Below are positions 41,275 through 63,990 of a stretch of 64,000 nucleotides of DNA, one piece after another. The stretch is taken from positions 558,001 through 622,000 of the forward strand of contig NZ_CALSBP010000003.1 of NCBI RefSeq assembly GCF_943373825.1, written 5' to 3'. Position numbers and translations under genes: made by a program. This DNA comes from Aquimarina spinulae (lineage in GTDB: Bacteria > Bacteroidota > Bacteroidia > Flavobacteriales > Flavobacteriaceae). The notes below the pieces were generated by a model. It was not told the origin of the DNA. It saw nothing but the letters and a program-made list of their open reading frames with translations, and made no database searches. Numbering within the stretch: the first letter of the stretch is position 1; every line of letters starts with the position of its first letter.

Positions 41275-41439
41275 AACGCTAAATATATGAATCGGAACAA
41301 GGTAAGTATGCTTAAAGTAATTGATTTATCAGCGCATTTTTATTTCTTTTTAAACTTATAAAAATTTAGTGCCTCTGCAAAAAGGAATTTAACCTTTCGA
41401 TTTGACATTAAACTTTGCTCTGATTTCATATATCATGTT
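41275..41439 (-). repeat. attC-like site S1 (family D)
   Basis: 165 bp, from GATAAC to GTTAACT. Inner arms AAATATATGAATCGGAACAA and TTGCTCTGATTTCATATAT are complementary with bulges. Strongly similar to S16. It is the array's distal end. The stop codon of the C1 gene is inside the GTTA core. Confidence 0.8.
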
Positions 41440-42034
41440 AACTACAGTCTTTTTTTACTCCTTTAATAATGCTCTCATATTGATTTTTTAACTTCATATC
41501 ATTTTTTATGAACACGGATTTTTTTGAAGACTCTCTTGCTTTTTCACAATCTAATACTCCGTTTGTATAGATGTAAGTCAAATAAAGATTAGCATAAGCT
41601 CTCCAATATTCAGATTCGCATTTAAGTAACATATTTCTTAAAGTTTTCTCTGCACTATCGAAGTGGTTTGCTAAGATAAATACTCTTGATTTATTAATGT
41701 GACTTGGCCAATAATTTAAATCTTGTTTTATACTGTCATCGAAATAGCTAATGGCTTCTTGATATTTTTTTTCAGTTAATGCAATTGTTCCAAGTTCATC
41801 TATTACGATTGAGTTCTTTTCTATTTCTAGAGATTTATTCAAATAAATTTTTGCAGAATCCAAGTTTCTTTGTTCAAATAATTTAGTGCCCTTATGATAG
41901 AACTCAGTAGCTTTTTCGTTTTTAATCTTCTGGTTTATGTGTTTTGAATGATCGTGGTTTTCTAGAAAATTATCTTGCTTGTCGGATTTGCAGTATACTA
42001 AAATTATAAAAGAGAATAATAATATATTTTTCAT
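41438..42034 (-). CDS. C1: TPR-containing lipoprotein
   Basis: 198 residues. Lipoprotein-like signal (LFSFIILVYCKSDKQ). Three or more tetratricopeptide-like repeats from residue 45 on (YHKGTKLFEQRNLDSAKIYLNKSLEIE, LGTIALTEKKYQEAISYFDDSIKQ, RVFILANHFDSAEKTLRNML), indicating a scaffold for protein contacts. The TAA stop is formed by the site core at 41438. Unlike other cassettes it has a 100-bp gap between its start and the next site, so its own promoter could fit. Confidence 0.7.
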   Translation of the reverse strand: MKNILLFSFIILVYCKSDKQDNFLENHDHSKHINQKIKNEKATEFYHKGTKLFEQRNLDSAKIYLNKSLEIEKNSIVIDELGTIALTEKKYQEAISYFDDSIKQDLNYWPSHINKSRVFILANHFDSAEKTLRNMLLKCESEYWRAYANLYLTYIYTNGVLDCEKARESSKKSVFIKNDMKLKNQYESIIKGVKKDCS

Positions 42035-42134
42035 CAGTGTTTCAATTTAGATAAAGCAGGATAATTTGATTTTCCTCTCAAATTATACCTTAAAAAGTGT
42101 AAACGGTGTGCCTTTAACGTACCTAATTGGTGGT

Positions 42135-42281
42135 AACGTTTAATATATGTGTCGTAGCAGAGCAAAATGTTACCCCGCCTTTCGATTTTTCTGCGCATTG
42201 GTTGCTAACTTTTACTTTTGCAAGCATTGCGCCTGCATAAAAATATAATAACCTTTCGATTCAATAATTAGCTGCTATAAC
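42135..42281 (-). repeat. attC-like site S2a (family B, truncated)
   Basis: Begins GGTAACGTTTAATATATGTG like S13 and shares the whole left two thirds with S11-S13, but stops at AGCTGCTATAAC instead of a full right arm. There it runs directly into S2b with no gene between. Confidence 0.7.
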
Positions 42282-42403
42282 GGCTCGGCTATGACCTCGT
42301 TGCGGACATTTCCAGCGGAAATTGTCCGTATGAAATGCAGCCGTGTTAATGGTTAATAGGTTTAAAGTTAGTAAGAAAGTTGCAATGAATTATACCCCTT
42401 GTT
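42279..42403 (-). repeat. attC-like site S2b (family F)
   Basis: 125 bp from ATAACGGCTCGGC to GTTGGCA. The centre has an apical hairpin, CGGACATTTCC-agc-GGAAATTGTCCG. Related to S9. Confidence 0.7.
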
Positions 42404-42415
42404 GGCACCAGTTAT

Positions 42416-43183
42416 TTACAGGTCATACGTTGTAACAAAACTTTGATGTTCACCCTCAGTACCATAGAAATAAATCCCAACAGTAATTTCTGAAGATTTT
42501 GGAATTTTCGATTCGTCATTCATGTATAGTTCAAAACTTTCCATGAAACATTGAGTTACAATTCCATTAAGTGTCTCGTTTTGCAGTCCTTTTATGCTGG
42601 TAACTTTTTTGACTTTTAATTTTTTACTTACCCTAATTTTAAAAAGTCCAAAAGCCCCTTCTTCTAGTTCAAATCCCTTTCCATTGTCAAGACAATCGTT
42701 CAGAAAGGTGTAATCCAATCGAAAGTCGTTTTTAATGTTTAGTTCCTTCTCTTTTATGTAGCGAAGTACGTTAAGTTTTCTATAATTGCTTAATTCGATT
42801 TTTTTAGTGAGTCCTGGGTATTTCTCCTCGTTCACTTTTCTGTCCAGTTGAATTGCCCCAGAACATGAACCAAAGACTAGTTCTTTTTCGTTATCCTCAT
42901 AAGCAAAAATCAACCAGTTCGACCCCTCAGGAGTATAGAATGCACAGGATGAATTCAAGATACTTTTGATTTTCAATTTAGATACTTTTGAGCCTTTGAA
43001 AATCTCGTCGATTTTTATTTCAAGATTGTGATAGTGATTTCCATCAGGAGTAATTTTTTGAATTTCAGCTGTAGCGACAAAATCTGCTTTTTCATATCCG
43101 TCAATAAGTCGGATGATTGCACAATCACACGCAAAAGAATTAGTAAAAAACAGAATAAAAAATATTAGAATTAGAGTTTTCAT
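42416..43183 (-). CDS. C2: secreted protein with a possible NTR/TIMP-like domain
   Basis: 255 residues from the ATG at 43183; a GTG three codons earlier falls inside the site core and is unlikely. Signal peptide ends NSFACDC. The cysteine pattern ACDC...SSCAFYTPEGSNWLIFAYED...GSCSGAIQLD resembles netrin-like (tissue-inhibitor-of-metalloproteinase-like) domains found in Bacteroidetes secreted proteins (tentative). Residues 150-255 are unrecognised. The start codon is 11 bp from the AAC core of S3. Confidence 0.55.
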   Translation of the reverse strand: MKTLILIFFILFFTNSFACDCAIIRLIDGYEKADFVATAEIQKITPDGNHYHNLEIKIDEIFKGSKVSKLKIKSILNSSCAFYTPEGSNWLIFAYEDNEKELVFGSCSGAIQLDRKVNEEKYPGLTKKIELSNYRKLNVLRYIKEKELNIKNDFRLDYTFLNDCLDNGKGFELEEGAFGLFKIRVSKKLKVKKVTSIKGLQNETLNGIVTQCFMESFELYMNDESKIPKSSEITVGIYFYGTEGEHQSFVTTYDL

Positions 43184-43194
43184 AATTGGCACCT

Positions 43195-43317
43195 AACGGT
43201 CTTGTGTATGATTTGTTGCGTGTTTAAACATCTAATTTAGCAAATAAAAACCGAATAGAAAATCCTCACGGATTTTCGTTAGTAGGTTAGAACTAGCAAT
43301 AAATTATACACGTTGTT
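43195..43317 (-). repeat. attC-like site S3 (family A)
   Basis: 123 bp from CCTAACGG to GTTGTATGC. Outer arms GTCTTGTGTATGATT and ATTATACACGTTG pair. Apex hairpin GAAAATCC-tcac-GGATTTTC. Confidence 0.8.
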
Positions 43318-43328
43318 GTATGCAGTTA

Positions 43329-43625
43329 TTAATATGGTTTTATATCTTCTATTTCAAATTCAACAGGATTATTATCTTTTACGACAACAATTACTCTCAA
43401 GTCATCTGAATCCTCTTTGTAATTGTTTTTCGTTTTATAGATGAATTGAACTATGTAAATAGATTTTTTTGAGTCATCTTCATCTTTTCTTAAGAATTTG
43501 CAGGATAATTCTGTTCCAGCTGCTTTTTCGTTTTTATCTCTAGCTTTAAGCATAGATGTTAATTTTTCATCTGTGAACAGAAATTCAATGATTTTTAGAT
43601 TTAAAATTGACGTTGGTTTTCTCAT
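43329..43625 (-). CDS. C3: small protein of unknown function
   Basis: 98 residues, no signal peptide, charged and beta-rich (SIYIVQFIYKTKNNYKEDSDDLRVIVVV). No family recognised. It shares a cassette with the next gene; no attC-like core was found in the 33-bp gap between them, so both move as one unit. Confidence 0.5.
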   Translation of the reverse strand: MRKPTSILNLKIIEFLFTDEKLTSMLKARDKNEKAAGTELSCKFLRKDEDDSKKSIYIVQFIYKTKNNYKEDSDDLRVIVVVKDNNPVEFEIEDIKPY

Positions 43626-43658
43626 TTTTATAAATTTTAGTTGAATAACAGCTCTTTA

Positions 43659-44057
43659 TTACGAATTATCGAAATGATAAATTTGTACTTCACTGACTTG
43701 ATAACTCTCAAAATTATTTAGCCAACACAACAAGTCGGTAAATATTTCAAATTTTGCTTCGTTGTATATTCCTATAACTGCGTTAAATTCATTGAATAGT
43801 GTATTATCTTTTTTGATTAAACGTTCTAAGTGACTTCCATCTCTTAAAGTCTCATTTTTATAAAAAATACCTTTTTCGTCCACTACTATATTCAAGTAAT
43901 CACGAGCAGTAGTATGGTTTTTTAATTCCCATTTTGCGGTTTCTCTACTAAGGAAAGTTACTTGTAGTTTTTCAGAGCAGTTATTCTTCTTCGTATTTTG
44001 AGAAAATAATTGAAAGTTGATTGCTAAGAACAATAGAAGTAGTATAATTTTTTTCAT
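43659..44057 (-). CDS. C3: secreted protein of unknown function
   Basis: 132 residues with a signal peptide (cleavage after LFSQ). The segment 'KWELKNHTTARDYLNIVVDEKGIFYKNE' suggests a small beta domain. Unknown. First gene of the two-gene cassette C3 in reading order. Confidence 0.5.
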   Translation of the reverse strand: MKKIILLLLFLAINFQLFSQNTKKNNCSEKLQVTFLSRETAKWELKNHTTARDYLNIVVDEKGIFYKNETLRDGSHLERLIKKDNTLFNEFNAVIGIYNEAKFEIFTDLLCWLNNFESYQVSEVQIYHFDNS

Positions 44058-44152
44058 CAGTTTGGTTTTTGAAAATTTTGATTTAAAATTAACTCTAAGT
44101 TCTGTTCAATCAAATACCTAATATTGGGTATTCTGACGGCAAAATGGTCTAC

Positions 44153-44274
44153 AACGGTCTTGTATATGAAAAGTAGCGGATTTTACACACTAATTTTTCA
44201 GATTATAACTGACCTTATTTTATTATTTATCTTTTGTCTAAACACTAAGATTGCTATTTTTTATATACGTTGTT
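44153..44274 (-). repeat. attC-like site S4 (family E)
   Basis: 122 bp from CTACAACGG to GTTGTACAC. Contains AGTAGCGGATTTTACACACTAA, shared with S8. Confidence 0.75.
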
Positions 44275-44342
44275 GTACACTATTATTATATAGATTTATT
44301 TGCAAAAATCAAATTAATTACATCATCGATGATTAGTTTTAT

Positions 44343-45329
44343 TTAACCAAAAAAGTCAATTCCAGCAATATTTGGTTCGTTTTTTAATTTTTTATATATA
44401 AATGCAGCACAAGCAATATCTTGAATAGCTGTTCCTGTTGAGTCATAAACAAATATTTCTTTATCATTAGTGCGTCCTTTTATTTTGCCTGTAATTAACT
44501 CCCCTAATTCACCATAAATATCTTTAGGAAGTATCAAATTGCTTTTAATGGCATGCTGAGACTCACCCACCTTTATAATTTGGTTCTTAATATCGCCAAT
44601 AATTTTTGAGTTTTGTATAATTTTTGGATCCAACTCATTTTTTCCAGGGCTATCAGCTCCAATAGCTCCAATAAAAGTTCCTGGTTGTATCCATTCATGA
44701 TTAACGAATGGCTTAGTAGATGGAGTACAGGTAATTATAATATTAGAATTTTTACATGTGTTTTCTAAACTACTTGTATTTACAGGAATGAATAGTTCAT
44801 CTTTTATTTTTTTAGCAAACTCAATCAGTTTTTGCTGATTCCTACCTGAAATTTTTATGGATTTTACATCACATACACATAGCAAGGCTTCTATTTGTGC
44901 TTCGGCTTGATTACCATAGCCAATAATTCCTAAATGAATAGGATCTTTAGGTTGCAAGTATCTTGCGGCAACTGCCGTAGCTGCAGCTGTTCTCATTTTA
45001 GAAATTAACGAAGATTCAAAAATAGCCAACGGATAAGCATTTTCGGCGTCTGATAAATATATAATTCCTAAAATATTAGGCAGGTTATATCTATTCTGAT
45101 TATTAAAAAATCCACCATTTGCTTTAAGCCCATAATATGATTTTTCTCCTATTATGCCTCCAGATTTTATATGATATTCTCCATTTGGGGCATCTGCATG
45201 TATAAGGTTGGTTTCAATTATATTTCCTTCAGCATGTAATTGATGAGCATAAGATACTGCCTGAATATAATCGTTCATATCTAATTGCTTTTCAAATGAA
45301 GAGCGGTTAAATAGTAGTGTTTTTTTCAT
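44343..45329 (-). CDS. C4: ornithine cyclodeaminase / mu-crystallin family enzyme
   Basis: 328 residues. Family features: HIKSGGIIGEKSYYGLKANGG, AIFESSLISKMRTAAATAVAARYL, Rossmann HLGIIGYGNQAEAQIEAL and GAIGADSPGKNELDP. Members include ornithine cyclodeaminase, alanine dehydrogenase and iminosuccinate reductase (BhcD). It begins 6 bp from the upstream gene's stop, so the two are one operon. Exact substrate unknown; see the D-threonine-aldolase-like partner. Confidence 0.85.
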   Translation of the reverse strand: MKKTLLFNRSSFEKQLDMNDYIQAVSYAHQLHAEGNIIETNLIHADAPNGEYHIKSGGIIGEKSYYGLKANGGFFNNQNRYNLPNILGIIYLSDAENAYPLAIFESSLISKMRTAAATAVAARYLQPKDPIHLGIIGYGNQAEAQIEALLCVCDVKSIKISGRNQQKLIEFAKKIKDELFIPVNTSSLENTCKNSNIIITCTPSTKPFVNHEWIQPGTFIGAIGADSPGKNELDPKIIQNSKIIGDIKNQIIKVGESQHAIKSNLILPKDIYGELGELITGKIKGRTNDKEIFVYDSTGTAIQDIACAAFIYKKLKNEPNIAGIDFFG

Positions 45330-45335
45330 GATAAG

Positions 45336-46415
45336 CTATAGTCTTGTGATTACTTTATTATTAATATCTAGATACGATTTCATTAAATTTGCTGTCATAC
45401 AAGAATGAATAGGTAGAATTAACAAGCAATCTCCAATTTTGTAATTGTTTATTTCAGATTTTGGAACCGAAATGATACCATGTTCCTGAGACAGACTGTT
45501 TACATACATTCCGAGAATGATATTTCCCCAACCCATTTCGGTTTTCTCAACAACTCTTCCAAAAATAGTCCCTTCTTTATCTTCTAATCGATCTTTAGAA
45601 AAATGAACACCACCACCATAAACCACAATTTCAGAACGGTCTTCATGAATAGCAACAATAGGACAAGTCATAGCAACAGCGATTTGTGAAATACTATTGG
45701 AACCAATTTTATGTTGGGTTAAATCATAAAAAACAAAATTACCTGGGCGTATTTCATTAACACCTGTAAAGTCTTCAGCAACACTACAACTAGGCGTGTC
45801 TCCTAACGAAACAATTAAGTTTGGATATTGAGATTTATACTGAACTTTTAAACTTGTCATAATTTCTAAACTAATATGATGTATTTCCTTAATGGCTTCT
45901 TGTGTTCTACATTTGTATGTATGCCCAGCGTGACCTAAAAAACCTACAAAAGTTAAATAATGATTAGCATTAATAACTTTAAGAATAGTATCCATTAAGT
46001 TTTTATCTTTTGGATTAATACCTGTACGGTGATATCCTACATCTATTTTTAGAAAGACGTTTACATTTGAAATTAAGTGTTCTGATAGGAAAGAAATACT
46101 CTCAACATTTTCAACTACCAGGTTTATAATGATTTTTGAAGCTAAATCATTAATAGATTGAATTTCTAGAATATTAACAGGAAAGGCGATAGTAATATTT
46201 TTCCAATCTTCTGAAAAGTATTTTGCCATATCAACTGATGAAACCGTAATCTTATTTACCCCCAGCTCTTTATACCATGAACCAATTTCTAATGATTGAT
46301 GAGATTTAAAATGCGGTCTGAAGTCTAAATTATGATATTTTGCCTTGTTAAACATTCGATTGATGTTTTCTCTGCATTTCTGCTGGTCTATTATAAGCGT
46401 TGGTTTAGTAATCAT
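45336..46415 (-). CDS. C4: D-threonine aldolase / D-serine dehydratase-like PLP enzyme
   Basis: 359 residues from ATG 46415; the longer frame to 46496 runs through the operators and is not used. An alanine-racemase-fold barrel: PLP-lysine in LDFRPHFKSHQSLEIG, GHAGHTYKC, SLGDTPSCSVAEDF, and the C-terminal metal-binding H-x-C in LPIHSCMTANLM, which marks D-threonine aldolase, D-serine dehydratase and beta-hydroxyaspartate aldolase. First gene of a minus-strand operon divergent from a MarR regulator. Own promoter between two operators. Confidence 0.82.
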   Translation of the reverse strand: MITKPTLIIDQQKCRENINRMFNKAKYHNLDFRPHFKSHQSLEIGSWYKELGVNKITVSSVDMAKYFSEDWKNITIAFPVNILEIQSINDLASKIIINLVVENVESISFLSEHLISNVNVFLKIDVGYHRTGINPKDKNLMDTILKVINANHYLTFVGFLGHAGHTYKCRTQEAIKEIHHISLEIMTSLKVQYKSQYPNLIVSLGDTPSCSVAEDFTGVNEIRPGNFVFYDLTQHKIGSNSISQIAVAMTCPIVAIHEDRSEIVVYGGGVHFSKDRLEDKEGTIFGRVVEKTEMGWGNIILGMYVNSLSQEHGIISVPKSEINNYKIGDCLLILPIHSCMTANLMKSYLDINNKVITRL

Positions 46416-46450
46416 GTCGATATTCTTTAAGTTATCTATCGTGTTAAATA

Positions 46451-46505
46451 TATCTTCACATGAAGATACTTTTACAAATATACAATATATCTTCATGTGA
46501 AGATA
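46451..46505. promoter_or_regulatory. Two MarR operators and divergent promoters
   Basis: TATCTTC-ACAT-GAAGATA (46451-46468) and TATCTTC-ATGT-GAAGATA (46488-46505) are palindromes 37 bp apart, centre to centre. Between them lies a minus-strand -7 element TATATTTG (46475-46482). Binding would repress both genes. Confidence 0.75.
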
Positions 46506-46543
46506 TATTTTCGTATTTTCACCTCAAAATCAACACTTTAAAA

Positions 46544-47038
46544 ATGAAGAATAGCGACTTAATTGATTTATTGCAATCCGAATGGAAGAATGAACGACCA
46601 GAACTAAATACATCTGGAATGCAAATAGTTGGACGTATCTTAATGCTGGGTAAAATTCTAGAAAGAAGAGCAGGTGTGGCTGTAGTAGGTTTTAATATTC
46701 ACTATACCGATTTAGATGTGATGGCTACCATTAGACGTTCTGGCAATCCCTATGAATTAACACCTTCACAACTAATGAAGTCGGTTCTTATTAGTTCAGG
46801 TGCTATGACAGCCTTAATAAACAGGCTAACCAAATTAGAATTAGTTTACCGCTCTTCTAATTCAAAAGACGGTAGAATGAAATTAGTAGGCTTGACTGAA
46901 AAGGGATTAAAAATAATAGATGAAGCTATTGAATGGAGAATGATAGAGGCTAGCGAATCTATAAAAACTTTGAGTGAATCAGAAAAGAAAGAGCTTTCTG
47001 AATTATTAAAGAAACTATTAATTTCTTTAGATTCGTAA
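46544..47038 (+). CDS. C4: MarR-family regulator
   Basis: 164 residues from ATG 46544; the longer frame from 46460 lies on top of the operators. Winged helix features: TDLDVMATIRRSGNPYELTPSQLMKSVLISSGAMTALINRLTKLELVYRSSNSKDGRMKLVGLTEKG. It is the only plus-strand gene in the whole array. Two palindromic operators upstream suggest autoregulation and control of the divergent operon. Confidence 0.9.
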   Translation: MKNSDLIDLLQSEWKNERPELNTSGMQIVGRILMLGKILERRAGVAVVGFNIHYTDLDVMATIRRSGNPYELTPSQLMKSVLISSGAMTALINRLTKLELVYRSSNSKDGRMKLVGLTEKGLKIIDEAIEWRMIEASESIKTLSESEKKELSELLKKLLISLDS

Positions 47039-47057
47039 CATCTTGATAATGGTGTGC

Positions 47058-47288
47058 AACGTCTCGACTATGGTTAGTATGGGATTAAAAGTAACTAAAC
47101 TTTCGATTAAGCACTTAGCCAAAACTTTTTGTTTTGTTTTATATTTTTCTCTAAAGCCCACCGAAGGACTACAACTATCAAAATTAAAATAAAAACCACA
47201 ATTGTAAATCAAAAGATTTGGCGGACTTGGTTAAAAACACTAAAATTTTGGGTAAGCACCAAAACCCGTATTAACTATAGCCATTGTT
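47058..47288 (-). repeat. attC-like site S5 (family C)
   Basis: 231 bp from GTGCAACG to GTTACCA; shares CTTTCGATTAAGCACTTAGCCAAAAC with S6, S18 and S19. Longest of its family. Confidence 0.8.
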
Positions 47289-47302
47289 ACCAACTGGCTT
47301 TT

Positions 47303-48520
47303 TCACTTGAGCTTGGTTTCATATTCGCCTAAAATGTTATAAATTTTATCTAAGGTCGGTCGAACTTCTTCATCAAAATCTGTGTCGGTGTTTATTAAAA
47401 CTATTTTACCGATCAAGCTTTCAGGATTAAAATACATATACGCCATAACACCTGGGTCATAACCATTATAACCAATTCCCCTTTTCGAATAATCCATAAA
47501 AATACCTGTGTTTGCGTCAACTCCTTCTGGAAGCTGACTTTTAATCAATTGCTTTTTAAAAATCTCATTATAACTTTCTTTTGATAATAAACTTCCGTTT
47601 CCTGAATAGCCCTTTATTAACTCAGACAAATATTTTCCCAAATCGGTGCTTGATGTAATTAGTCCACTTGCAGGAAACCCCACCGTTGTATAATCCGCCA
47701 TAATTTGTTCGTTAGTTGCATATAATGTCGAACGGTTCTTTGATTCGATATATTTAGCAGTCCAGCTTGATGAGTTCATTTGTAAAGGTTCAAGAATGTA
47801 TTTTGTAGTAAATGTTTGATAAGGAATTCCAGTTGCCGATTCAATTACAAGTGCGCATAGGTTTGACCCAACATTTGAATAATCAAATTTTGCAGACGGT
47901 TTGTTTACGGAATAACTTTTGCCATTGTTCAGGGCGCCTTTTTCGGTCAATAAACTTTTTAAAAAATCGGCAAGTGATATTTTGGTTTTAGGCTCATTGA
48001 AATAATCTGGTATTCCTGTGCCTTTTTTATGGTCTTTATTAATAAGTATGTAATCGCTTTCCCAAAAACTATCTGAATCGGTTATTGAGGACGTGTGGAT
48101 GGCCAATTGTCTTATTGTAATAAGTGTCTCTGGAAAGTTTGGGTTTGATACTTTAAATGGAAGATATTTATTTATGGGTTCATCAAGATTAAGTTTGCCC
48201 ATTTCTTGGGCTTTAAACAATGAAAGCCCAATCAAGGTCTTTGAAATTGAGGCAATGGGTTGAACAGTTTGGATCGAATATGGTTTTTGGGTTGTGGAGT
48301 CTGCCAAACCAAATCCTTCATTATAGAGAATCCCAGTAGAATTCACCATTGCGACAGAAAATCCAACTATTTTTCCTTTCTCATTGATTTTGCTAATATG
48401 AGCAGTCAATGTATCTTTAATTTCCGAATAGTCCTTTGTGTTCTTTTTCTTAGAGTTGTTTTTTTGTCCGCAAGCAACTACCAAAATGAAAATTGAGAGG
48501 ACTAGGATTATTTTATTCAT
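47303..48520 (-). CDS. C5: beta-lactamase-family serine hydrolase lipoprotein
   Basis: 405 residues from ATG 48520, which gives a good lipoprotein signal (ILVVACGQKNN); 28 extra residues from 48604 would come from the site. Class C/DD-peptidase-like fold: S91-I-S-K94 (SxxK nucleophile), Tyr-x-Asn-type YSNVGSNLCAL, and a late GYNGYDPGVMAYMYF in the KTG position without an obvious KTG. Probably an esterase or peptidase in the periplasm. C6 carries another member of this fold. Confidence 0.82.
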   Translation of the reverse strand: MNKIILVLSIFILVVACGQKNNSKKKNTKDYSEIKDTLTAHISKINEKGKIVGFSVAMVNSTGILYNEGFGLADSTTQKPYSIQTVQPIASISKTLIGLSLFKAQEMGKLNLDEPINKYLPFKVSNPNFPETLITIRQLAIHTSSITDSDSFWESDYILINKDHKKGTGIPDYFNEPKTKISLADFLKSLLTEKGALNNGKSYSVNKPSAKFDYSNVGSNLCALVIESATGIPYQTFTTKYILEPLQMNSSSWTAKYIESKNRSTLYATNEQIMADYTTVGFPASGLITSSTDLGKYLSELIKGYSGNGSLLSKESYNEIFKKQLIKSQLPEGVDANTGIFMDYSKRGIGYNGYDPGVMAYMYFNPESLIGKIVLINTDTDFDEEVRPTLDKIYNILGEYETKLK

Positions 48521-48547
48521 TAAACTTTGTTTTTTTAGCTTGTTGGT

Positions 48548-48737: not shown

Positions 48738-48778
48738 ACAGCCAGTATTTATTTTAATTCATTGTTATCGTTTAATTT

Positions 48779-56138: not shown

Positions 56139-56146
56139 ACCTACAG

Positions 56147-56881: not shown

Positions 56882-56891
56882 AATTGTAGGT

Positions 56892-57055
56892 AACGTTTAA
56901 TATATGTGTCGTAGCAGAGCAAAATGTTACCAAGCCACCGATATTTTCTGCGTAGATTTTATACATTTATAGAGTTTTAAAATCACTGCGCCATCATAAA
57001 TATACAAGAACCAATCGATTAATCACTAATCAGCTATGATCACATATATGTTGTT
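56892..57055 (-). repeat. attC-like site S13 (family B)
   Basis: 164 bp from AGGTAACG to GTTGTAACAC, with TTTAATATATGTGTCGTAGCA on the left and CACATATATGTTG on the right. Confidence 0.85.
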
Positions 57056-57066
57056 GTAACACGTTT

Positions 57067-57459
57067 TTATTCCGACATTTTTTCGTCCGTCCGTTTTACC
57101 TCGACTGTTTTTTGATTGTAATTGTAGATAGCAAGTCCAGCTGAGAATATTAATACATTCAAGATCAACTTCCCTATTCCGTCCGTTATATCATCTCCAA
57201 TAAATAATTTTATTAGCTTTCCAAGAATTACAAGTCCGCCTCCCAGCATTAGTATTACGGCCGAGACATTAATTCCCATTTTAGCATGCTTATGTCTCAT
57301 CAAAACTAAGACTAGAACTATTATTTGAATTAAAGTAGGAATGAGCGCAATCAAACTTTTAGAAATCAAAAATGTGTATAGATTCCAGCAAATTAAAAGT
57401 CCGAGTGTAGCTATTATTAAAACTTGAAATGTTTGGTTTTTGAAAAATGTTTTTTCCAT
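57067..57459 (-). CDS. C13: four-helix membrane protein
   Basis: 130 residues with four hydrophobic helices (VLIIATLGLLICWNLYTFLI, LIALIPTLIQIIVLVLVLM, INVSAVILMLGGGLVILGKLI, LILNVLIFSAGLAIYNYN). No family recognised. Stop 12 bp from the S13 core. Confidence 0.55.
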   Translation of the reverse strand: MEKTFFKNQTFQVLIIATLGLLICWNLYTFLISKSLIALIPTLIQIIVLVLVLMRHKHAKMGINVSAVILMLGGGLVILGKLIKLFIGDDITDGIGKLILNVLIFSAGLAIYNYNQKTVEVKRTDEKMSE

Positions 57460-57484
57460 TGGTTGGTTTTGGTAAATGTGTTAC

Positions 57485-57596
57485 AACGTGTTTGTGTATG
57501 GTTAGGACTAAGTTAGTAAACAAAAACGAACCAGAGGAAAATCCGTAGGATTTTCCGAGTACACACAGAACAAGCAATTAAATATACACGTTGTTG
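57485..57596 (-). repeat. attC-like site S14 (family A)
   Basis: 112 bp from TTACAACGTG to GTTGTGTAC. Apex GGAAAATCC-gtag-GGATTTTCC; outer arms as in S3 and S10. Confidence 0.85.
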
Positions 57597-57614
57597 TGTA
57601 CAGTGCTTTTTATT

Positions 57615-58034
57615 CTAATTTTCAATTATTTCCTTTGTTTTAATATATTCAAAGTCATTTCCACCTAAATAGTTTATTGTTCCCAAATAGACAGAACAGT
57701 TCAAGGTTAAATGGATTTGATTTGCTATTTCTTCTAAAAGTCCGTCAGAGGGTTCGATATTCTCATACATTAACATTATTGAAATCGGTTCTTTTAAATT
57801 TTCTTTTTTTTGTTCAACACTCCCTTCTTTAAAATCACTCCAATAAGAATGTTTTCTAGAAATATTGAATTCATAGGACAAGTCAATTGAATGCGCCTCA
57901 ATCCATTCAAAAACATTTTCATAATCGTATTGAAATTCCTCGATTAGTTTTTTATTATAAAATTCGGTTGCGATATCTTCAAGAGGTTTTTCTGAATAAA
58001 ACCATAGTTTATAATTCTTTCTATTTGTTTTCAT
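57615..58034 (-). CDS. C14: small cytoplasmic protein of unknown function
   Basis: 139 residues, no signal peptide. Acidic and aromatic (YKLWFYSEKPLEDIATEFYNK, LNCSVYLGTINYLGGNDFEYIKT). Composition is like small immunity or antitoxin proteins; no family identified. Start 14 bp from S15 core. Confidence 0.55.
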   Translation of the reverse strand: MKTNRKNYKLWFYSEKPLEDIATEFYNKKLIEEFQYDYENVFEWIEAHSIDLSYEFNISRKHSYWSDFKEGSVEQKKENLKEPISIMLMYENIEPSDGLLEEIANQIHLTLNCSVYLGTINYLGGNDFEYIKTKEIIEN

Positions 58035-58048
58035 AGGGCATTGTATAC

Positions 58049-58108
58049 AACGTTTAGTGTAAAATGCGTTTGCATCCCAAAAGGTGCATATGCATTATAC
58101 AAATTGTT
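58049..58108 (-). repeat. attC-like site S15 (short type)
   Basis: 60 bp from ATACAACG to GTTATGT. Centre AATGCGTTTGCATCCC-AAAA-GGTGCATATGCATT forms one long bulged hairpin. Confidence 0.75.
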
Positions 58109-58117
58109 ATGTATTTT

Positions 58118-58642
58118 TCATTTTTTATTTAGCGTAGAATAAATTTTCATCAATTTATCCAAGTCATTTTTAGTTGTTGCATTTCCAAAAGCATGAATCT
58201 TTTCGTTCCAAATTTCATTACTTTCATTGATTATAATAGATTGCATTGAAAATTCACCATTACAATCATAAATTCTCCATTTTCTTTGCTTATTAAAAAC
58301 TTCACTTTCCGAAAATTCTGTTTTACAGTCATCATTATCTGGTGCAAATTCACTCGGATGATAACCAAGATAAAAACCGCCTGAGAGATTTTGTACGCTA
58401 TTTGTATCTATATGCTTGAAATGGTACACTTTAAAGTCAGGACCCAAATTTTCCTCAATCTTGTAATTCGTTGGTAAGGAAATGTACAAGTTACTCCCCC
58501 CGATTTTGGTTTCAATTAAGTTTTTTTTAAATAAATCAATAACAGGATCAGAATTAGGCTTGCTCTTCGATTCCTTTTTATTACAAGAGTATAATAAAAC
58601 TACAGTCAAAAACATAGAGAGTAATACTTTTTTTTCATTCAT
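58118..58642 (-). CDS. C15: lipoprotein of unknown function
   Basis: 174 residues from ATG 58642 (lipoprotein signal TVVLLYSCNKKES); ATG 58657 would add MSFQN and is an alternative. The body has 'KIGGSNLYISLPTNYKIEENLGPDFKVYHFKHID', resembling a PsbP/SMI-like small alpha-beta fold seen in secreted unknowns. Stop 12 bp from the S15 core. Confidence 0.55.
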   Translation of the reverse strand: MNEKKVLLSMFLTVVLLYSCNKKESKSKPNSDPVIDLFKKNLIETKIGGSNLYISLPTNYKIEENLGPDFKVYHFKHIDTNSVQNLSGGFYLGYHPSEFAPDNDDCKTEFSESEVFNKQRKWRIYDCNGEFSMQSIIINESNEIWNEKIHAFGNATTKNDLDKLMKIYSTLNKK

Positions 58643-58670
58643 ATTTTGAAAACTCATTTTAATTATACAC

Positions 58671-58835
58671 AACGCCAAATATATGAATCGGAGCAAGGCA
58701 AGTATACCTTAACCAATCGATCTATCTGCGCATTTTTATTTCTTGTTTAATTTATAAAAATTTAGCGCCACCACAAAAAGGAAATAACCTTTCGATCTAG
58801 CACTAAAACTTTGCTCTGATTTCATATATAATGTT
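58671..58835 (-). repeat. attC-like site S16 (family D)
   Basis: 165 bp from ACACAACGCC to GTTAGAC. Arms ATATATGAATCGGAGCAA and TTGCTCTGATTTCATATAT; close match to S1, 17 kb away. Confidence 0.85.
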
Positions 58836-58844
58836 AGACACAGG

Positions 58845-59612
58845 CTATTTTTCCCATATCTTCCGTATTAATTTGATTATTGGTAGTTTGCCAGGAGAGT
58901 TTTTTTTCTCTTCCTTAGGCTCATCACTTATGGTAACTTTTTTGTAATTTTTCTCAATATAATCCCATTCATCCATATCAGGTTGTTTTAGGTCTGATCC
59001 ACCTCTATGAGGATGTTGAACATAATCTTCAGGAGGTTTTGGTAAACTTTTTTTGCAAGAATCTGAACAAACATTTACTAACAAAGGAACTATATCGGTA
59101 GCTACACCTAATGTTATCCAATATTGACTATTGTCGATAAAAGACATTTCTCTTTTACAAATACTACAATTAATTATATCAGAAGTGTATTTTACAGGAT
59201 TATGATTTAATCTAGGGAATCCCTTTCTGTTTTTATAGTTCCCGTATAATGCTCTAGTACTTATTCTGCTGTCTTTTAGGTTTTTACAATTAGTTATTTC
59301 ATAAGGAAGCCAATTTAAATCGTAAGAACCGTAAGGGTCAAAATATTCAAGAGATTCCATTTCTCCAATTTCAGGAGGTATTCTTTTTAAGTTACTTCCA
59401 TAAAGCCCGATTTTTTTCACTCTTTTGAGTTTGGATATAGATTTTGGAAGGGTATATATTTGAGAGAATAATTCATCACCTAGATACTCTTTGGGAACAA
59501 ATTCATCAGATCCGTTTTTAGCTATCAGTTCAACATATTCACATAATTTTTGCCAAGCGACAGAATCTCTATTTTGAAAATTGTTTGGAATTTTTGAGAT
59601 TGTATTAGTCAT
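58845..59612 (-). CDS. C16: leucine-rich-repeat-like protein with a Cys cluster
   Basis: 255 residues from ATG 59612; the 15 codons before it belong to S17. Residues 45-105 hold LRR-like turns (LPKSISKLKRVKKIGLYGSNLKRIPPEIGEMESLEYF, LPYEITNCKNLKDSRI). A later C-x2-C and C-x3-C set (IINCSICKREMSF, NVCSDSCKKSL) could bind zinc. No signal peptide. Function unknown; possibly an immunity or binding protein. Confidence 0.6.
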   Translation of the reverse strand: MTNTISKIPNNFQNRDSVAWQKLCEYVELIAKNGSDEFVPKEYLGDELFSQIYTLPKSISKLKRVKKIGLYGSNLKRIPPEIGEMESLEYFDPYGSYDLNWLPYEITNCKNLKDSRISTRALYGNYKNRKGFPRLNHNPVKYTSDIINCSICKREMSFIDNSQYWITLGVATDIVPLLVNVCSDSCKKSLPKPPEDYVQHPHRGGSDLKQPDMDEWDYIEKNYKKVTISDEPKEEKKNSPGKLPIIKLIRKIWEK

Positions 59613-59631
59613 ATTATTTGTGCTTGTGTCT

Positions 59632-59690
59632 AACGTTAAGTATATGAAGCGTAACATCCCGTAGGGTGTTATGATTTCATATACAGTGTT
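59632..59690 (-). repeat. attC-like site S17 (short type, 59 bp)
   Basis: From GTCTAACG to GTTAGGT. GTATATGAA and TTCATATAC pair exactly; CGTAACATCCC and GGGTGTTATG pair with one extrahelical base; apex GTA. This looks like a classical attC hairpin with bulges. The TAA stop of the C17 gene lies inside its GTTA core. Confidence 0.85.
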
Positions 59691-60687
59691 AGGTGCTTTT
59701 TATTTTATTTTTCACTAATTCCGCCGCAGTTTTGGCAAAGGATTTAGTAATTAGTTTCAATTCCTTCTTTTCTAATTCATTAGTTATTTGGTTATAGTCT
59801 TTTAAAAAATCCTCGACTACATCTTTATTAAACATACCCAATACTCTTCCGAAATCCTTTTGAGAAATTTCTCCAATTTTACTCACAACATTATTCAATC
59901 TATTTTCAGTCACATATGTAAGAATAGCTTCTTGAAGTTTAATTACTTTATCAGAAAGTTCATCTTCCAATTTTATAGATTTATGATACTTTTTATTTTC
60001 AGACCATTTCTCATTTTTGTTCTTAAGAATAACTCGGACACCATTATTAAAGTGTCGTGTCTTTGATGGTTTAATAACCACTCCTTCCACAACATTTGGA
60101 GTTAAATCAGGAAGGTTAAGTTCTTTTGGCAGAGTTGAATTAAAATCATTTGGATAATCTAGACATTCTTTTAAATCTCCTCTGAAAATTGTTTTAGCGT
60201 GAAGTATTTTTTGTTTTTCAAAATGACTATTCACTACATCAACATCTAAATATGTTTCTGAATTGATTAAAATATCAAAAGCATAGAAGTGATTTTTAGG
60301 GCTATAAAAAATTCCTTTTTGAACCATTATTGCTTTTCTATCAATTTCAACTTCTTTGTGAGGATAATCACCTCCAATAATTTCTCCGAAAATTGTTAGT
60401 TGCTTTAAATTCTCAATTTCATTTTTTAAATCTGACCAAATGTTTTTAAGCTTTGGTTTTAACTCCTTTAGAATTAAATCGTGATTGAAAAATTTTTCTT
60501 CATTAGTAATTTGGTCAGTTCTTTTTGCAGAAAAATAATCATCACCATTCGTCGACCAATAACTTAGATTCGCTCCATGTACCTTTTCTTGAACAATAAA
60601 TTCATCATTCCAAAATTCATGACCCTTTATTCTGTCAATAAATTCGTCGCGGTAAGTGTTTTCTATAGAAGTGTATTTTTTGAACAT
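59689..60687 (-). CDS. C17: RNA ligase, T4 Rnl2 family
   Basis: 332 residues from ATG 60687 (T4 Rnl2 has 334). MFKKYTSIEN matches the T4 start, and the nucleotidyl lysine is K35 in EKVHGAN (motif I, KxxG), the same position as in T4 Rnl2. Further motifs: FGEIIGGDYP, FYAFDILI (III), GVVIKPS (IV), VILKNKNEKWSE (V), and the C-terminal VISKIGEI-like NNVVSKIGEISQKDFGRVLGM helix block. It joins 3'-OH and 5'-phosphate RNA ends, probably at nicks. The stop TAA falls in the attC core. Confidence 0.92.
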   Translation of the reverse strand: MFKKYTSIENTYRDEFIDRIKGHEFWNDEFIVQEKVHGANLSYWSTNGDDYFSAKRTDQITNEEKFFNHDLILKELKPKLKNIWSDLKNEIENLKQLTIFGEIIGGDYPHKEVEIDRKAIMVQKGIFYSPKNHFYAFDILINSETYLDVDVVNSHFEKQKILHAKTIFRGDLKECLDYPNDFNSTLPKELNLPDLTPNVVEGVVIKPSKTRHFNNGVRVILKNKNEKWSENKKYHKSIKLEDELSDKVIKLQEAILTYVTENRLNNVVSKIGEISQKDFGRVLGMFNKDVVEDFLKDYNQITNELEKKELKLITKSFAKTAAELVKNKIKST

Positions 60688-60709
60688 TTCCTTTTTTCTA
60701 ATTGCACCT

Positions 60710-60896
60710 AACGGCTCGGCTATGGTTAGTGCGGAAATTAAAAGTAACGAACTTTCGATTAAGCACTTAGCCAAAACTTTTTATTTTGTTTTATCTTTTT
60801 TGTTCTAAAGCCAAATCAAAAGATTTGGCGGACTTTATAAAAATACACTAAACTTTGGATTAAGAATCAACCCCCGTATTAATTATAGCCTATGTT
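60710..60896 (-). repeat. attC-like site S18 (family C)
   Basis: 187 bp from CACCTAACGGCTCGGCTATGG to GTTAGCA; contains TTCGATTAAGCACTTAGCC and CAAATCTTTTGATTTGG-type inner arms. Confidence 0.85.
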
Positions 60897-60903
60897 AGCA
60901 ACT

Positions 60904-61800
60904 TTAATTTATATTCAATTCAGTCGAAATATTAACTTCTTTCTTTGAATTTTTATCTTTCAGTTTTGCAGTCAATCTGCAAGGGTTATTTATCTCTCCT
61001 TTTGTAAAAGTAAGTTTAGCGGTTACTTGACTTTTCAAATCTTTAGGATTTACTCCGACGTCTTCATAAGCACTTAAAAGATTTGAATTCGAAAGTATTT
61101 TGTTTCCATTGTTATCGGTTAAGTCAACTGAGAAAATTGGAAAAACCTTATCATCGGTTAATTCTAAACCTTCAATGTCATTAAGTATCAAAATAAAAAG
61201 ATGTTCAGAACTTATATTACTTTTAAAAACAGGTTGTTTTAGAGTTTCATTCCATAAATAAATAGTTGAATATTCAATTCCATTGCTTTTCACATCTAAT
61301 AAGTCGTTTTCCTTAACAGTAAATGGCAGTTCATAATTAAATGTTCCGTCTCCTTTTTTATCGGTAATCTCAACGAGCACTTTATACTTTTCATCATTTT
61401 GATTTGGTAAAGCAGAAATAAAATTCGCTTGTAATTGAAGAGGCGAAAGATCAGTTCCGTTATTTAAGCTTTTCAGTAGGTTTTGATTAGAGAAAACCGT
61501 GTCTTTATCATTTTTGACAATGTACATTGATAATTCTGGATAGGTTTTTCCATTGGAATGGGTTAATCCAGAAACATTGTTAAATATCAGGTTTACGTCT
61601 TCGCCAAAAACAAATTTATTTCTATTGTCGGTTTCTCCGTTAACCTCTATTGCAATATCATCAACTCCAATTCCATCACCTCTGGAATATGCTCCTGTAG
61701 TCAAATCTTTGTTTACTGATTGATTAAATTGACAAGAACTAAATGTTACAATTACTATTAATAGAATAAGTATTCTAATTTTCTGCATTTGGTTTTTCAT
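60904..61800 (-). CDS. C18: lipoprotein of unknown function
   Basis: 298 residues. Lipoprotein signal (VIVTFSSCQFNQ). Beta-rich body with two similar halves (GIGVDDIAIEVNGETDNRNKFVFGEDVNLIFNNVSGLT and KSNGIEYSTIYLWNETLKQPVFKSNISSEHLFILILNDIEGLE), suggesting two immunoglobulin-like domains. Start 10 bp from S19 core, stop 9 bp from S18 core. Confidence 0.6.
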   Translation of the reverse strand: MKNQMQKIRILILLIVIVTFSSCQFNQSVNKDLTTGAYSRGDGIGVDDIAIEVNGETDNRNKFVFGEDVNLIFNNVSGLTHSNGKTYPELSMYIVKNDKDTVFSNQNLLKSLNNGTDLSPLQLQANFISALPNQNDEKYKVLVEITDKKGDGTFNYELPFTVKENDLLDVKSNGIEYSTIYLWNETLKQPVFKSNISSEHLFILILNDIEGLELTDDKVFPIFSVDLTDNNGNKILSNSNLLSAYEDVGVNPKDLKSQVTAKLTFTKGEINNPCRLTAKLKDKNSKKEVNISTELNIN

Positions 61801-61810
61801 TATTGTTGCT

Positions 61811-61992
61811 AACGTTTAGCTATGCGTAGTGCGGGAGCAAAAAATCACAGGTTTTCGATCTAGCACTTAGCCAAAGTTTATGTTTTGTTTTTATCTTTTC
61901 TAAAATACTAAATTTAAATCTTTGGCGACATACCAAATAAGCAACAATCTTTGAATTAAACCAAAACCCCGCATTATCGTATAGGTGTTGTT
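61811..61992 (-). repeat. attC-like site S19 (family C)
   Basis: 182 bp from TGCTAACG to GTTAGGC. Left arm TTTAGCTATGCGTAGTGCGGG, right arm CCCCGCATTATCGTATAGGTG: they pair with few mismatches. Confidence 0.85.
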
Positions 61993-62000
61993 AGGCAACG

Positions 62001-62588
62001 TTAATAACCGAGTATTTCTTTTCGTTCAGGGCAATCCTCAGTTTTACATAAAATTTTGCCATCGTGATTCTTACTCTTATCATAAACTTTTAGAATGTTG
62101 AACAACTTATGTTTTATATAATCGTATTCAAATGTTTTTTCGTTAAAGATAGAGTCAATTTCTTGTGATTTAAAAAAATCTTCGTGATTTCCATTATTCT
62201 GTTTCATATAATTTGTCAACCTGCCAAAGATTGAGTTTTCAAAATCTTTATGACTCCTGATTACTAAAGGACAATCTAAAACTCCTTCGAATTCTAAACC
62301 ATTTATACTATCGAGAAAGGAATATTGATTTTCCAAATAGATGTAATCATAATTATTATCAGATAATTCAAAGAAAAAATCCTTATAACTCTTGCCAGTT
62401 GAGTCTTTTAATAATCTGCTTTTTATAAGTTCGTTTTCAAATCCTTTTATATAACGTCTGATAGATTTTCCGTCAACAGTCACATTTTCAGAATAGCATT
62501 TATTATAAATGTCAGATATTTTCTCGTTTTGACAACTAAAAAGTAAGATTGAAATTAATGATATTATCAAGTATGATTCTTTTTTCAT
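62001..62588 (-). CDS. C19: lipoprotein of unknown function (recombinase-proximal cassette)
   Basis: 195 residues from ATG 62588 (lipoprotein signal SILLFSCQNEK); ten codons upstream belong to the junction. Body is charged, with FENSIFGRLTNYMKQNNGNHEDFF. Unknown. As the first cassette after the recombinase it would be the most recently captured in an ordinary integron. Confidence 0.55.
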   Translation of the reverse strand: MKKESYLIISLISILLFSCQNEKISDIYNKCYSENVTVDGKSIRRYIKGFENELIKSRLLKDSTGKSYKDFFFELSDNNYDYIYLENQYSFLDSINGLEFEGVLDCPLVIRSHKDFENSIFGRLTNYMKQNNGNHEDFFKSQEIDSIFNEKTFEYDYIKHKLFNILKVYDKSKNHDGKILCKTEDCPERKEILGY

Positions 62589-62598
62589 AATGTTGCCT

Positions 62599-62640
62599 AA
62601 CAACAGAATATACGACATATGTCCTATATATTCTATTTAT
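62599..62640 (-). other. attI-like recombination junction
   Basis: The first cassette's core (GTTGCCTAAC, 62592-62601) abuts a 30-bp near-palindrome, 62605-62634: AGAATATA, then GACATATGTC in the middle, then TATATTCT. No long attC-like hairpin follows. In position and simplicity it fits an attI site with two recombinase-binding arms around a core. About 140 bp to the recombinase stop contain no gene. Confidence 0.55.
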
Positions 62641-62778
62641 TATATTCCCACTTTGGGGATATTTATGTTTTTTGATCTATAATTTACAAAAATAAAGTCT
62701 TTATTCTCTGTTTTGGTACTATTGCTATAAAATGTGATGAAATCAATTGTTTTTGTGACGATTTTGTAAGATATATTT

Positions 62779-63906
62779 TTACTCATCTAATGGATTTTTG
62801 ATGGCTTTGAATTTGTTTATAGATACTTGAGTATAAATTTCTGTAGTTCTTGTGCTACTATGTCCTAATAAAGTTTGGATATATCTTAGATCGGTTCCAC
62901 TTTCTAATAGATGGGTGGCAAACGAATGTCTGAGTATATGTGGAGTGACCTTTCTTTTGATATATGCTTTTGTTGCTGCTCTGTTTACAATTGCCCCTAC
63001 ACTTTTTCCTGAATATTTCATCCCATTTGGGGATTCAAATAAGTATTCTTTGGGTTTCCATTGTCTATAATAGATTCTTAAATCTTTTACTACCTTTTCT
63101 GATAGTAAGGAATATCGATCTTTATTGTTTTTTGCATTCCTAATGTGAATCAGCATTCGTTTGCTATCTATATCAGTTAGTTTTAGATCTAATAATTCGC
63201 TTCTGCGTAATCCAGAAGAATATAATAGACTTACTATGCAACGATGTTTTATGTTATTGGTATTGGCAATTATAGAACGTATTTCTTCTTTTGATAACAC
63301 TTGTGGGAGTTTCTGTTCTTTTCTGGGCCTTTCGATACTATAAAACCTGTTAGGCATTCCCATGACCACCTCATAATAGAACTTAATACTATTAATGGCC
63401 TGGTTAATATAACTATTAGATTTGTTTTGACTAATGAGATGCTGTAAATAGCTTCGGATTTCCTCCTCTGACAAGGCCACAATATCATTATCACAATAGT
63501 GATTAATGAATTTTTCAAATTGTATTATATAGGTTTTACAGGTATTTAAGGCATATCGTTTGAGTTCTAATTTTCTCAGGTATTCTTCAGGAACATACTT
63601 GTAAGAAGTCGTTTTACTTCGGTTTCGATACCAGTTAATATCCACAGGTTGATTGTCACGTATTGGCTTTTCTTTAAAAAAAGAATTACCGTTTATCCAC
63701 GCTACTCCTCTAAATTTTTCAAAAACTTCGGCGAGATTTTCTTTAGTGTTTGCAATATATACCATCGAAAACCCCTTACTCCATTTAGGGTTTGGAAGTT
63801 CCTTTATCAATGCCTGGATCACCTTATCAGGATAAAACTGTAACCCAATCATCTTTTGATTGCCAATCAATAAGTGTTTTAATGTGATATGTTTAGTAAG
63901 GTTCAT
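62779..63906 (-). CDS. Tyrosine recombinase of the cassette array
   Basis: 375 residues. Residues 1-90 form an N-terminal domain unlike XerC/D (FYPDKVIQALIKELPNPKW, MVYIANTKENLAEVFEKF). Residues 105-190 are the SAM-like DNA-binding domain (RYALNTCKTYIIQFEKFINHY). The catalytic domain has R234 (SSGLRRSELLDL), K259 (NAKNNKDRY), H323 and R326 (PHILRHSFATHLLESG), H349 (LLGHSS) and Y358 (TEIYTQV). The stretch between R234 and H323 is XerD-like in length and lacks the insertion of IntI integrases. It lies on the same strand as the cassettes and transcribes toward them. Four 11-bp repeats lie upstream of its start. Confidence 0.88.
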   Translation of the reverse strand: MNLTKHITLKHLLIGNQKMIGLQFYPDKVIQALIKELPNPKWSKGFSMVYIANTKENLAEVFEKFRGVAWINGNSFFKEKPIRDNQPVDINWYRNRSKTTSYKYVPEEYLRKLELKRYALNTCKTYIIQFEKFINHYCDNDIVALSEEEIRSYLQHLISQNKSNSYINQAINSIKFYYEVVMGMPNRFYSIERPRKEQKLPQVLSKEEIRSIIANTNNIKHRCIVSLLYSSGLRRSELLDLKLTDIDSKRMLIHIRNAKNNKDRYSLLSEKVVKDLRIYYRQWKPKEYLFESPNGMKYSGKSVGAIVNRAATKAYIKRKVTPHILRHSFATHLLESGTDLRYIQTLLGHSSTRTTEIYTQVSINKFKAIKNPLDE

Positions 63907-63946
63907 TGTACAAAAATGCGGTATTTAAAAATCATAGTAGTATTTT

Positions 63947-63990
63947 AGTCGAATAACATTCGAATAGGATTCGACTACTATTCGATTCAT
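63947..63990 (-). promoter_or_regulatory. Four 11-bp direct repeats upstream of the recombinase
   Basis: TCGA occurs at 63949, 63960, 63971 and 63982, an exact 11-bp phase, within ATTCGAATAGG-like units. Parts also form an inverted repeat (TAGTCGAAT 63946-63954 / ATTCGACTA 63969-63977). The first unit is 40 bp before the recombinase ATG, so it is a candidate operator or promoter control element. Confidence 0.65.

Follow-up and report, generated by a model that had tools for sequence, protein, structure and literature searches.

The window, a 64,000-nucleotide stretch of the Aquimarina spinulae genome (6.24 Mb, three contigs; positions 558001-622000 of contig C3), carries on its minus strand an array of gene cassettes that very probably represents an integron-like platform driven by a tyrosine recombinase other than IntI. 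In the minus-strand reading, the array (window 41275-62629) begins with an attI-like site, followed by 19 cassettes, each closed by an attC-like hairpin site. The 19 attC-like sites and the one attI-like site all lie in this reading, and the recombinase gene is situated just upstream in the same direction. The initial annotation had proposed such an array of 19 cassettes, with sites bounded by AAC and GTT on one strand beside a tyrosine recombinase, and this is confirmed here. The complementarity between the two ends of each cassette and the turnover of whole cassettes within the species, with breaks at the cores, together indicate that the array works like an integron. The two features at its head are as follows.

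62779-63906, minus strand: tyrosine recombinase of 375 amino acids (aa), with an N-terminal extension of about 105 aa, a SAM-like core-binding domain (PF13495) and a catalytic domain (PF00589), and no I2 region.
62599-62629, minus strand: attI-like site, a palindrome with 11-nucleotide (nt) arms followed after 6 nt by the core GTT, whose G is at 62601; the site is downstream of, and codirectional with, the recombinase gene.

If a cassette moves in circular form, its first bases meet its last bases in the site of the circle; hence, the start and the end of the same cassette must be complementary. The seven bases after GTT were compared with the reverse complement of the seven bases before AAC. 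In the window, the ends of the same cassette match at a mean of 5.84 of seven positions, versus 2.53 for other pairings, and none of 100,000 permutations is as high. These boundaries were set by eye, and the automatic scan of relatives is the fairer test. Its input consisted of 19 recombinase loci in 17 relatives' genomes, of which 16 loci (15 genomes) gave intervals and three (L048, L049 and L052) gave none. Among the resulting 129 intervals, 92 match their own end at six or more of the seven positions, and four match the partner at the same junction; the match total is 691, whereas none of 20,000 permutations exceeds 365. As in integrons, the sites are bounded by AAC (R'') and GTT (R'), with R'' complementary to the start of its own cassette, which defines the cassette unit and the position of the core at the level of sequence.

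Turnover was examined by comparing window 42700-62601 with 52 Aquimarina genomes; one genome, G091, belongs to the same species. The flanks are colinear in G091 (window 28212-42037 at 95%, and from 62598 onward at 88 to 96%), and the recombinase and the attI-like site are common to both genomes. Between the flanks lie 20.6 kb here and 38.9 kb in G091, within which the only common stretches of at least 300 bases are cassette 12 (50940-53175, 98.7%), cassette 18 (42274-43211, 95%) and the gene of cassette 19 (to 42037), all three in the same order. The alignment from the recombinase side stops one or two bases past the GTT of the attI-like site, and that of cassette 12 starts right after the core and stops within AAC. 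The far end is thus kept and the near end is replaced, as predicted by growth from attI. The check proposed at the outset, for gains or losses of cassette size with breaks at GTT, is therefore passed by the same-species genome, and both a fixed gene block and chance palindromes are ruled out by this turnover and by the own-end complementarity.

In other Aquimarina species, among the matches listed, single window cassettes recur as units whose borders fall at cores or close to them, namely cassettes 2 (60903-61812, 77%), 4 (58654-59636, 96%) and 15 (47276-48552, 88%). Cassette 14 occurs in at least eight other Aquimarina genomes at 84-91%, with outer edges of the matches at 48528-48771 and 49917-50068, versus 48548 and 50040 for the cassette with its site. 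Many other listed matches consist of one cassette 12 gene alone, found in many places including its own genome, or of site-like stretches of about 200 bases. Furthermore, one cassette is common to the arrays of the relatives G047 and G032 and begins at the core in each of them; between G025 and G013, a stretch of 5.7 kb is 93% alike and stops 12 bases past a core.

After the recombinase stop codon, an inverted repeat scoring at least 8 is found at 23 of 28 loci, versus 4.3% of shuffles; the scored stretch was 55 nt set by hand in the window and the first 60 nt at the other loci. The sequence of this repeat varies by group while the symmetry is kept, with GTT within a few bases in nearly all, and in different relatives near-identical attI-like sites are followed by different cassettes. 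The relatives' loci are uninformative on the side of insertion, as mainly the 3' side was taken, and the side result is supplied by the best 80 named loci among the matches listed. Own-matched cassettes occur at 13 of these, 44 in all and on the recombinase strand, and none of six opposite-strand intervals matches. All 44 are located on the 3' side of the recombinase and none upstream, where 5 to 10 kb were covered. The palindrome, the homology breaks and the replaced near end point to an attI insertion site beside the recombinase and to growth from it, as in integrons.

Each site is constituted by R'' (ending in AAC), 3 nt, a stem, a variable part, the second strand of the stem, 5 or 6 nt, and GTT. 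The scanner pattern (AAC, spacer, stem, stem, spacer, GTT) was written after the window sites had been seen and is tuned to them; it finds 16 of the 19, one of them (42403) via an inner GTT. At a score of at least 14, all 15 matches on the array strand are sites, whereas ten dinucleotide shuffles average 1.4 matches; the background amounts to three matches on the opposite strand of the array, and two and one on the two strands of the remaining window. The 150 sites with a score of at least 15 fall into length groups around 60, 124, 163, 187 and 240 nt, and the site families described in the initial annotation correspond to these length classes. In the predicted folds, the bottom strand is the more stable at 127 of the 150 sites (11 of 13 in the window) by a mean of 2.07 kcal/mol, compared with 65 of 150 in shuffles, which suggests that the substrate is a folded single strand, probably the bottom strand as in integrons.

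All 92 end-matched cassettes of the relatives carry A as the eighth base after GTT, as do 19 of 19 in the window and 66 of 66 end-matched cassettes of other Bacteroidia. With no end-match filter, A is found in 124 of the relatives' 129 cassettes, and the background is 230 of 350 over every CGTTR of the same loci, the sites themselves included; in G091, the figures are 14 of 14 end-matched cassettes and three of six others. This A stands opposite G (in the reading of the other arm) in 131 of 177 cassettes, forming a mismatch in the top strand and a G-T wobble in the bottom strand. Complementarity picks up again past base eight; thus, the R boxes extend beyond seven bases. C precedes GTT in 92 of 92 cassettes of the relatives, 17 of 19 in the window and 65 of 66 in other Bacteroidia, a position that the scanner rewards, and A directly follows AAC in 177 of 177, a position that it does not reward. 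The consensus GTTRRRY fits just 6 of 92 cassette starts. In predicted folds of 27 short sites, the excess of unpaired bases lies on the R''-L'' arm in seven, is equal in 11 and is reversed in nine, and no conserved extrahelical base on that arm, of the type docked by I2, emerges from these folds. The fixed A and the 3-nt versus 5- or 6-nt spacers are candidates for what determines the choice of the bottom strand.

The expectation that the recombinase is unlike IntI is borne out by the protein. Its reading frame is intact, and R234, K259, H323, R326, H349 and Y358, presumably the catalytic residues, are invariant in 16 aligned sequences. Against the IntI profile TIGR02249, it reaches 192 bits and misses the cut-off of 265, which no protein of its genome exceeds; in place of profile positions 178-243 it has 24 residues, a feature that two further Xer-like genes in this genome largely share. 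The AlphaFold2 model has no helix at residues 284-299, and the I2 insert is present in the 11 IntI alignment rows shown and in no row of this recombinase family shown with them (L101 yielded no motif row). The IntI-specific domain with the I2 helix is accordingly absent. In the tree, nine IntI stand apart from the family with 100% SH-aLRT support, while most inner branches are unstarred and the backbone is not resolved. Lying below the IntI cut-off, without the I2 region and outside the IntI group, the system is not an integron by the protein test. The best family match is NF040815 (XerA family; 224 bits, just above the cut-off of 220), which covers 263 positions and only residues 107-368, and the best sequence match among solved structures is XerA 5hxy. 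N-terminal residues 5-77 weakly match the DNA-binding fold of XPB (XPB-DRD) and HARP, which is a lead only.

Canonical IntI above the cut-off is found in 84 of 296 genomes of the phylum and in one of 295 genomes of the class Bacteroidia. The present family is matched at 1e-50 in 143 of 295 Bacteroidia genomes, its own included; some of these matches cover the core only, and the members serving cassettes need not be all 143. The named loci with own-matched cassettes include Winogradskyella, Seonamhaeicola, Algibacter, Lutibacter and Zunongwangia, together with two Flavobacterium, Arundinibacter, Aquiflexum and Algoriphagus; both other Flavobacteriales and Cytophagales show the same arrangement. 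In the named-locus set outside Bacteroidota, the scanner, made on Aquimarina sites, finds no own-matched cassette. A control with true IntI covered nine genomes; the strict threshold gave no cassette and the rule was then loosened, after which one genome (G133) has a clear array of two near-identical cassettes and the other eight are at about shuffle level or have none. In G133 (L210-L211, about 21.0-23.6 kb), the canonical IntI is followed by these cassettes downstream and codirectionally, the layout being as in Aquimarina; the own match extends over 13 bases and base eight is T, not A, with too few cassettes to generalise.

Several observations weigh against this interpretation. Cassettes 17-19 match their own ends weakly, and 37 of the relatives' 129 intervals fall below the mark; the latter may be missed sites that merge cassettes, or decayed cassettes. 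No own-matched cassette is found at 67 of the 80 named loci, where many contigs end near the gene and the scanner is Aquimarina-made. Sites, as model matches at 1e-4, occur in 50 of the 52 Aquimarina genomes, and all 13 genomes without a recombinase match at 1e-40 carry 1 to 16 of them; conversely, G027 and G039 have a recombinase match and no site at 1e-4. There is thus no link between sites and recombinase at the level of genomes. Moreover, the A. spinulae genome itself holds additional clusters of sites that have partly decayed and have no recombinase nearby. Relic arrays, enzyme loss or assembly gaps may explain sites without a recombinase. Cassettes may lie far from a recombinase, like the recombinase-free clusters of attC sites (CALIN) of integrons, or the enzyme may have been lost or not assembled. 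Scattered sites away from the recombinase had been named beforehand as a sign against the proposal, and this sign applies in part, namely to the A. spinulae genome and to the 13 genomes without a recombinase match at 1e-40; where the recombinase is present, however, 44 of 44 own-matched cassettes at 13 named loci are 3' of it and on its strand.

Two places in the same genome can be described further. A second cluster (G000:C2:2747990-2789826, L055-L057) lies on the minus strand with no recombinase match near; it has few own-end matches and looks decayed. At G000:C2:1588310 and 1593437 (L060, L005), about 5 kb separate a site and a recombinase fragment of 38 aligned residues with one stop.

The proposed Bacteroidetes cassette-capture platform is nevertheless supported by the own-end match, the bottom-strand folding bias, the attI-like site and the turnover in close genomes. 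In the proposed mechanism, cassettes would exist as circles with one attC-like site each, and the recombinase would cut in the GTT core and join the circles into the palindromic attI-like site that closely follows its gene. New cassettes would enter beside the recombinase, and old ones would drift to the far end. The adjacent recombinase probably carries out the joining. Its N-terminal domain, the long R boxes with the fixed A, or both, may replace the role that I2 and the extrahelical base play in IntI systems; the lack of I2 together with the general lack of an extrahelical base is expected if the two go together in IntI integrons. A fuller proposal, which we put forward tentatively and hold to be somewhat less than an even bet, is that cassette capture through folded single-stranded sites arose, or survives, in Bacteroidia without the I2 helix. 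A recombinase lineage separate from IntI would rely instead on an N-terminal domain whose fold resembles fork-binding domains and on long R boxes, in which a fixed A/G distortion would set the strand.

The main competing explanations differ in the enzyme or in the substrate that they assume. A canonical integron whose IntI has merely diverged past the usual profile would account for the AAC/GTT cores, the own-end complementarity, the stem with its variable terminal part and the bottom-strand bias, all as in attC, and it is favored by the 192 bits still obtained with TIGR02249 and by the true IntI in 84 of 296 genomes of the phylum, where one of nine examined has two codirectional cassettes downstream. 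However, the missed cut-off of 265 and the replacement of positions 178-243 by 24 residues refute the claim of membership, and the model without a helix at 284-299, the 100% SH-aLRT separation of the nine IntI and an L''-arm excess of unpaired bases in just 7 of 27 short sites point the same way, rendering this explanation unlikely. Alternatively, the cassettes could be modules driven by XerC/XerD, like pdif modules, with the adjacent recombinase incidental. The sites in all 13 Aquimarina genomes without a match to this recombinase and the two other Xer-like genes in the genome agree with this, but the position of all 44 own-matched cassettes at 13 named loci, 3' of the recombinase and on its strand, does not; with same-species homology breaking at the attI-like site directly after the recombinase gene, and with sites that are long hairpins of one GTT core each, such modules are very unlikely, although no search for dif motifs was made.

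A rival closer to the integron-like platform retains the same enzyme and cassettes and replaces the single-strand chemistry by ordinary two-strand exchange on double-stranded or cruciform sites. The recombinase is without I2, the element held to allow single-strand recombination in the text cited from PMC7790495, and the attI-like site is a strong palindrome, both of which suit this scheme. On the other hand, the bottom strand is the more stable at 127 of 150 sites, and two-strand exchange has no need of a long, like-built hairpin closing every defined cassette; we regard it as rather unlikely. By comparison, scattered imperfect palindromes within a fixed gene block, resembling repetitive extragenic palindromes (REP) or miniature inverted-repeat transposable elements (MITE), would fit the similar elements elsewhere in the genome, but they leave the own-end complementarity and the polarity of strand and side without a cause and are refuted by the same-species turnover of whole cassettes, leaving this idea practically no likelihood.

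Compared with integrons (IntI/attI/attC, including sedentary chromosomal ones), for which the attC definitions were taken from the relevant text of PMC2727003, the integron-like Aquimarina array has in common the one-site cassettes, the AAC/GTT cores and R'' complementary to its own start, as well as R and L boxes, an unpaired spacer, a variable terminal part, the bottom-strand bias and growth from attI beside the recombinase. The differences are a recombinase without I2, with an extra N-terminal domain of about 105 aa and in a separate tree group; R boxes longer than seven bases, the eighth being a fixed A, and an L''-arm excess base in only 7 of 27 short sites; sites of up to about 240 nt, versus 57-142 nt quoted for attC; and an attI that is a palindrome 3' of the recombinase gene. 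The recombinase resembles XerA and NF040815 ("site-specific tyrosine recombinase/integron integrase"), with 224 bits and with XerA 5hxy as the closest structure by sequence, and differs from that profile in its N-terminal extension, which lies outside it. XerA are dimer resolvases and are not known to be accompanied by cassettes. Among simple tyrosine recombinases, PMC8138268 distinguishes an "integron-like subgroup", to which the family may belong; the consulted portion of that source describes no cassette arrays for members that lack the insertion.

According to PMC7790495, cassettes cannot be captured without I2, and no other protein contains it; with attC-like cassettes across the class in the absence of I2, that claim becomes directly testable. 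Surveys of complete integrons, as outlined in part of PMC9668308, require the IntI-specific domain; thus, a cassette reservoir across Bacteroidia would be left out of them, or would appear at most as loose attC clusters. The relevant passage on IntegronFinder 2.0 (PMC9024848) names Salinibacter ruber M1 as a member of the Bacteroidetes with a complete integron, in addition to those of Chlorobi and Ignavibacteriae. A literature search of openly licensed papers found no description of a system such as the present one. If the fuller proposal is true, the platform would amount to a second kind of integron, one that searches based on IntI overlook although about half of the Bacteroidia genomes have its recombinase family. 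A whole branch of bacteria may hold an overlooked gene-capture system. A simple detector can be built from the sequence rules, which are the complementarity of a cassette's two ends, an A as the eighth base after GTT, a C preceding GTT and an A following AAC.

From the recombinase side to the far end, the cassettes, measuring 432-2786 nt from core to end box (n = 19), and their attC-like sites are arranged as follows (ORF, open reading frame).

61993-62601, minus strand: cassette 1, ORF 62001-62618 of no Pfam family, its start inside the cassette; own start and end complementary at 7/7.
61811-61992, minus strand: attC-like site 1; own-end match, found by the scanner.
60710-60896, minus strand: attC-like site 2, after cassette 2 (ORF 60904-61800); own-end match, found by the scanner.
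59632-59690, minus strand: attC-like site 3, short (59 nt), after cassette 3 (Rnl2-type RNA ligase 59689-60774); own-end match.
58671-58835, minus strand: attC-like site 4, after cassette 4 (ORF 58845-59657); own-end match, found by the scanner.
58049-58108, minus strand: attC-like site 5, short (60 nt), after cassette 5 (ORF 58118-58696); own-end match.
57485-57595, minus strand: attC-like site 6, after cassette 6 (ORF 57615-58034); own-end match.
56892-57055, minus strand: attC-like site 7, after cassette 7 (ORF 57067-57459); own-end match, found by the scanner.
55977-56138, minus strand: attC-like site 8, after cassette 8 (ORF 56147-56881); own-end match, missed by the scanner.
55078-55243, minus strand: attC-like site 9, after cassette 9 (two ORFs, 55259-55543 and 55527-56066); own-end match, found by the scanner.
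53943-54068, minus strand: attC-like site 10, after cassette 10 (ORF 54080-55054); own-end match, found by the scanner.
53175-53298, minus strand: attC-like site 11, after cassette 11 (SUKH/SMI1 immunity-like ORF 53239-54033); core at 53177 GCT in place of GTT, missed by the scanner.
50942-53177, minus strand: cassette 12, AraC-type regulator 52263-53054 and beta-propeller ORF 51299-52186; common to G091.
50820-50941, minus strand: attC-like site 12; own-end match, found by the scanner.
50038-50124, minus strand: attC-like site 13, after cassette 13 (ORF 50133-50798); own-end match, found by the scanner.
48548-48737, minus strand: attC-like site 14, after cassette 14 (beta-lactamase-fold hydrolase 48779-49993); own-end match, missed by the scanner.
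47058-47288, minus strand: attC-like site 15, after cassette 15 (beta-lactamase-fold hydrolase 47303-48604); own-end match, found by the scanner.
44153-44274, minus strand: attC-like site 16, after cassette 16 (D-serine-dehydratase-like 45336-46496, ornithine-cyclodeaminase-like 44343-45329, MarR-like 46460-47038 on the plus strand); own-end match, found by the scanner.
43195-43317, minus strand: attC-like site 17, after cassette 17 (ORFs 43329-43625 and 43659-44057); weaker own-end match, found by the scanner.
42135-42403, minus strand: attC-like site 18, compound, with remnants of two sites, after cassette 18 (ORF 42416-43192; common to G091).
41275-41439, minus strand: attC-like site 19, the end of the array, after cassette 19 (ORF 41438-42034, repeat-like by eye; gene common to G091); found by the scanner.

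The array genes lie on the minus strand with the sole exception of the MarR-like regulator in cassette 16. This cassette (window 44274-47060) is a 2.8-kb unit in which the divergent regulator accompanies two amino-acid enzymes, departing from the one-gene rule. A Pfam family is assigned to nine of the 20 cassette proteins scanned and none to the remaining 11; the scan left out four array ORFs (41438-42034, 43329-43625, 43659-44057 and 55259-55543). PADLOC yields a single weak match (E 0.0045) among 10 proteins, and an Rfam search of window 38000-64000 gives no match at E 0.1. The Rnl2-type RNA ligase of cassette 3, with TIGR02307 above its cut-off, is an unusual cargo. In the left flank, at window 35011-35628, two stretches of about 370 bp resemble each other.

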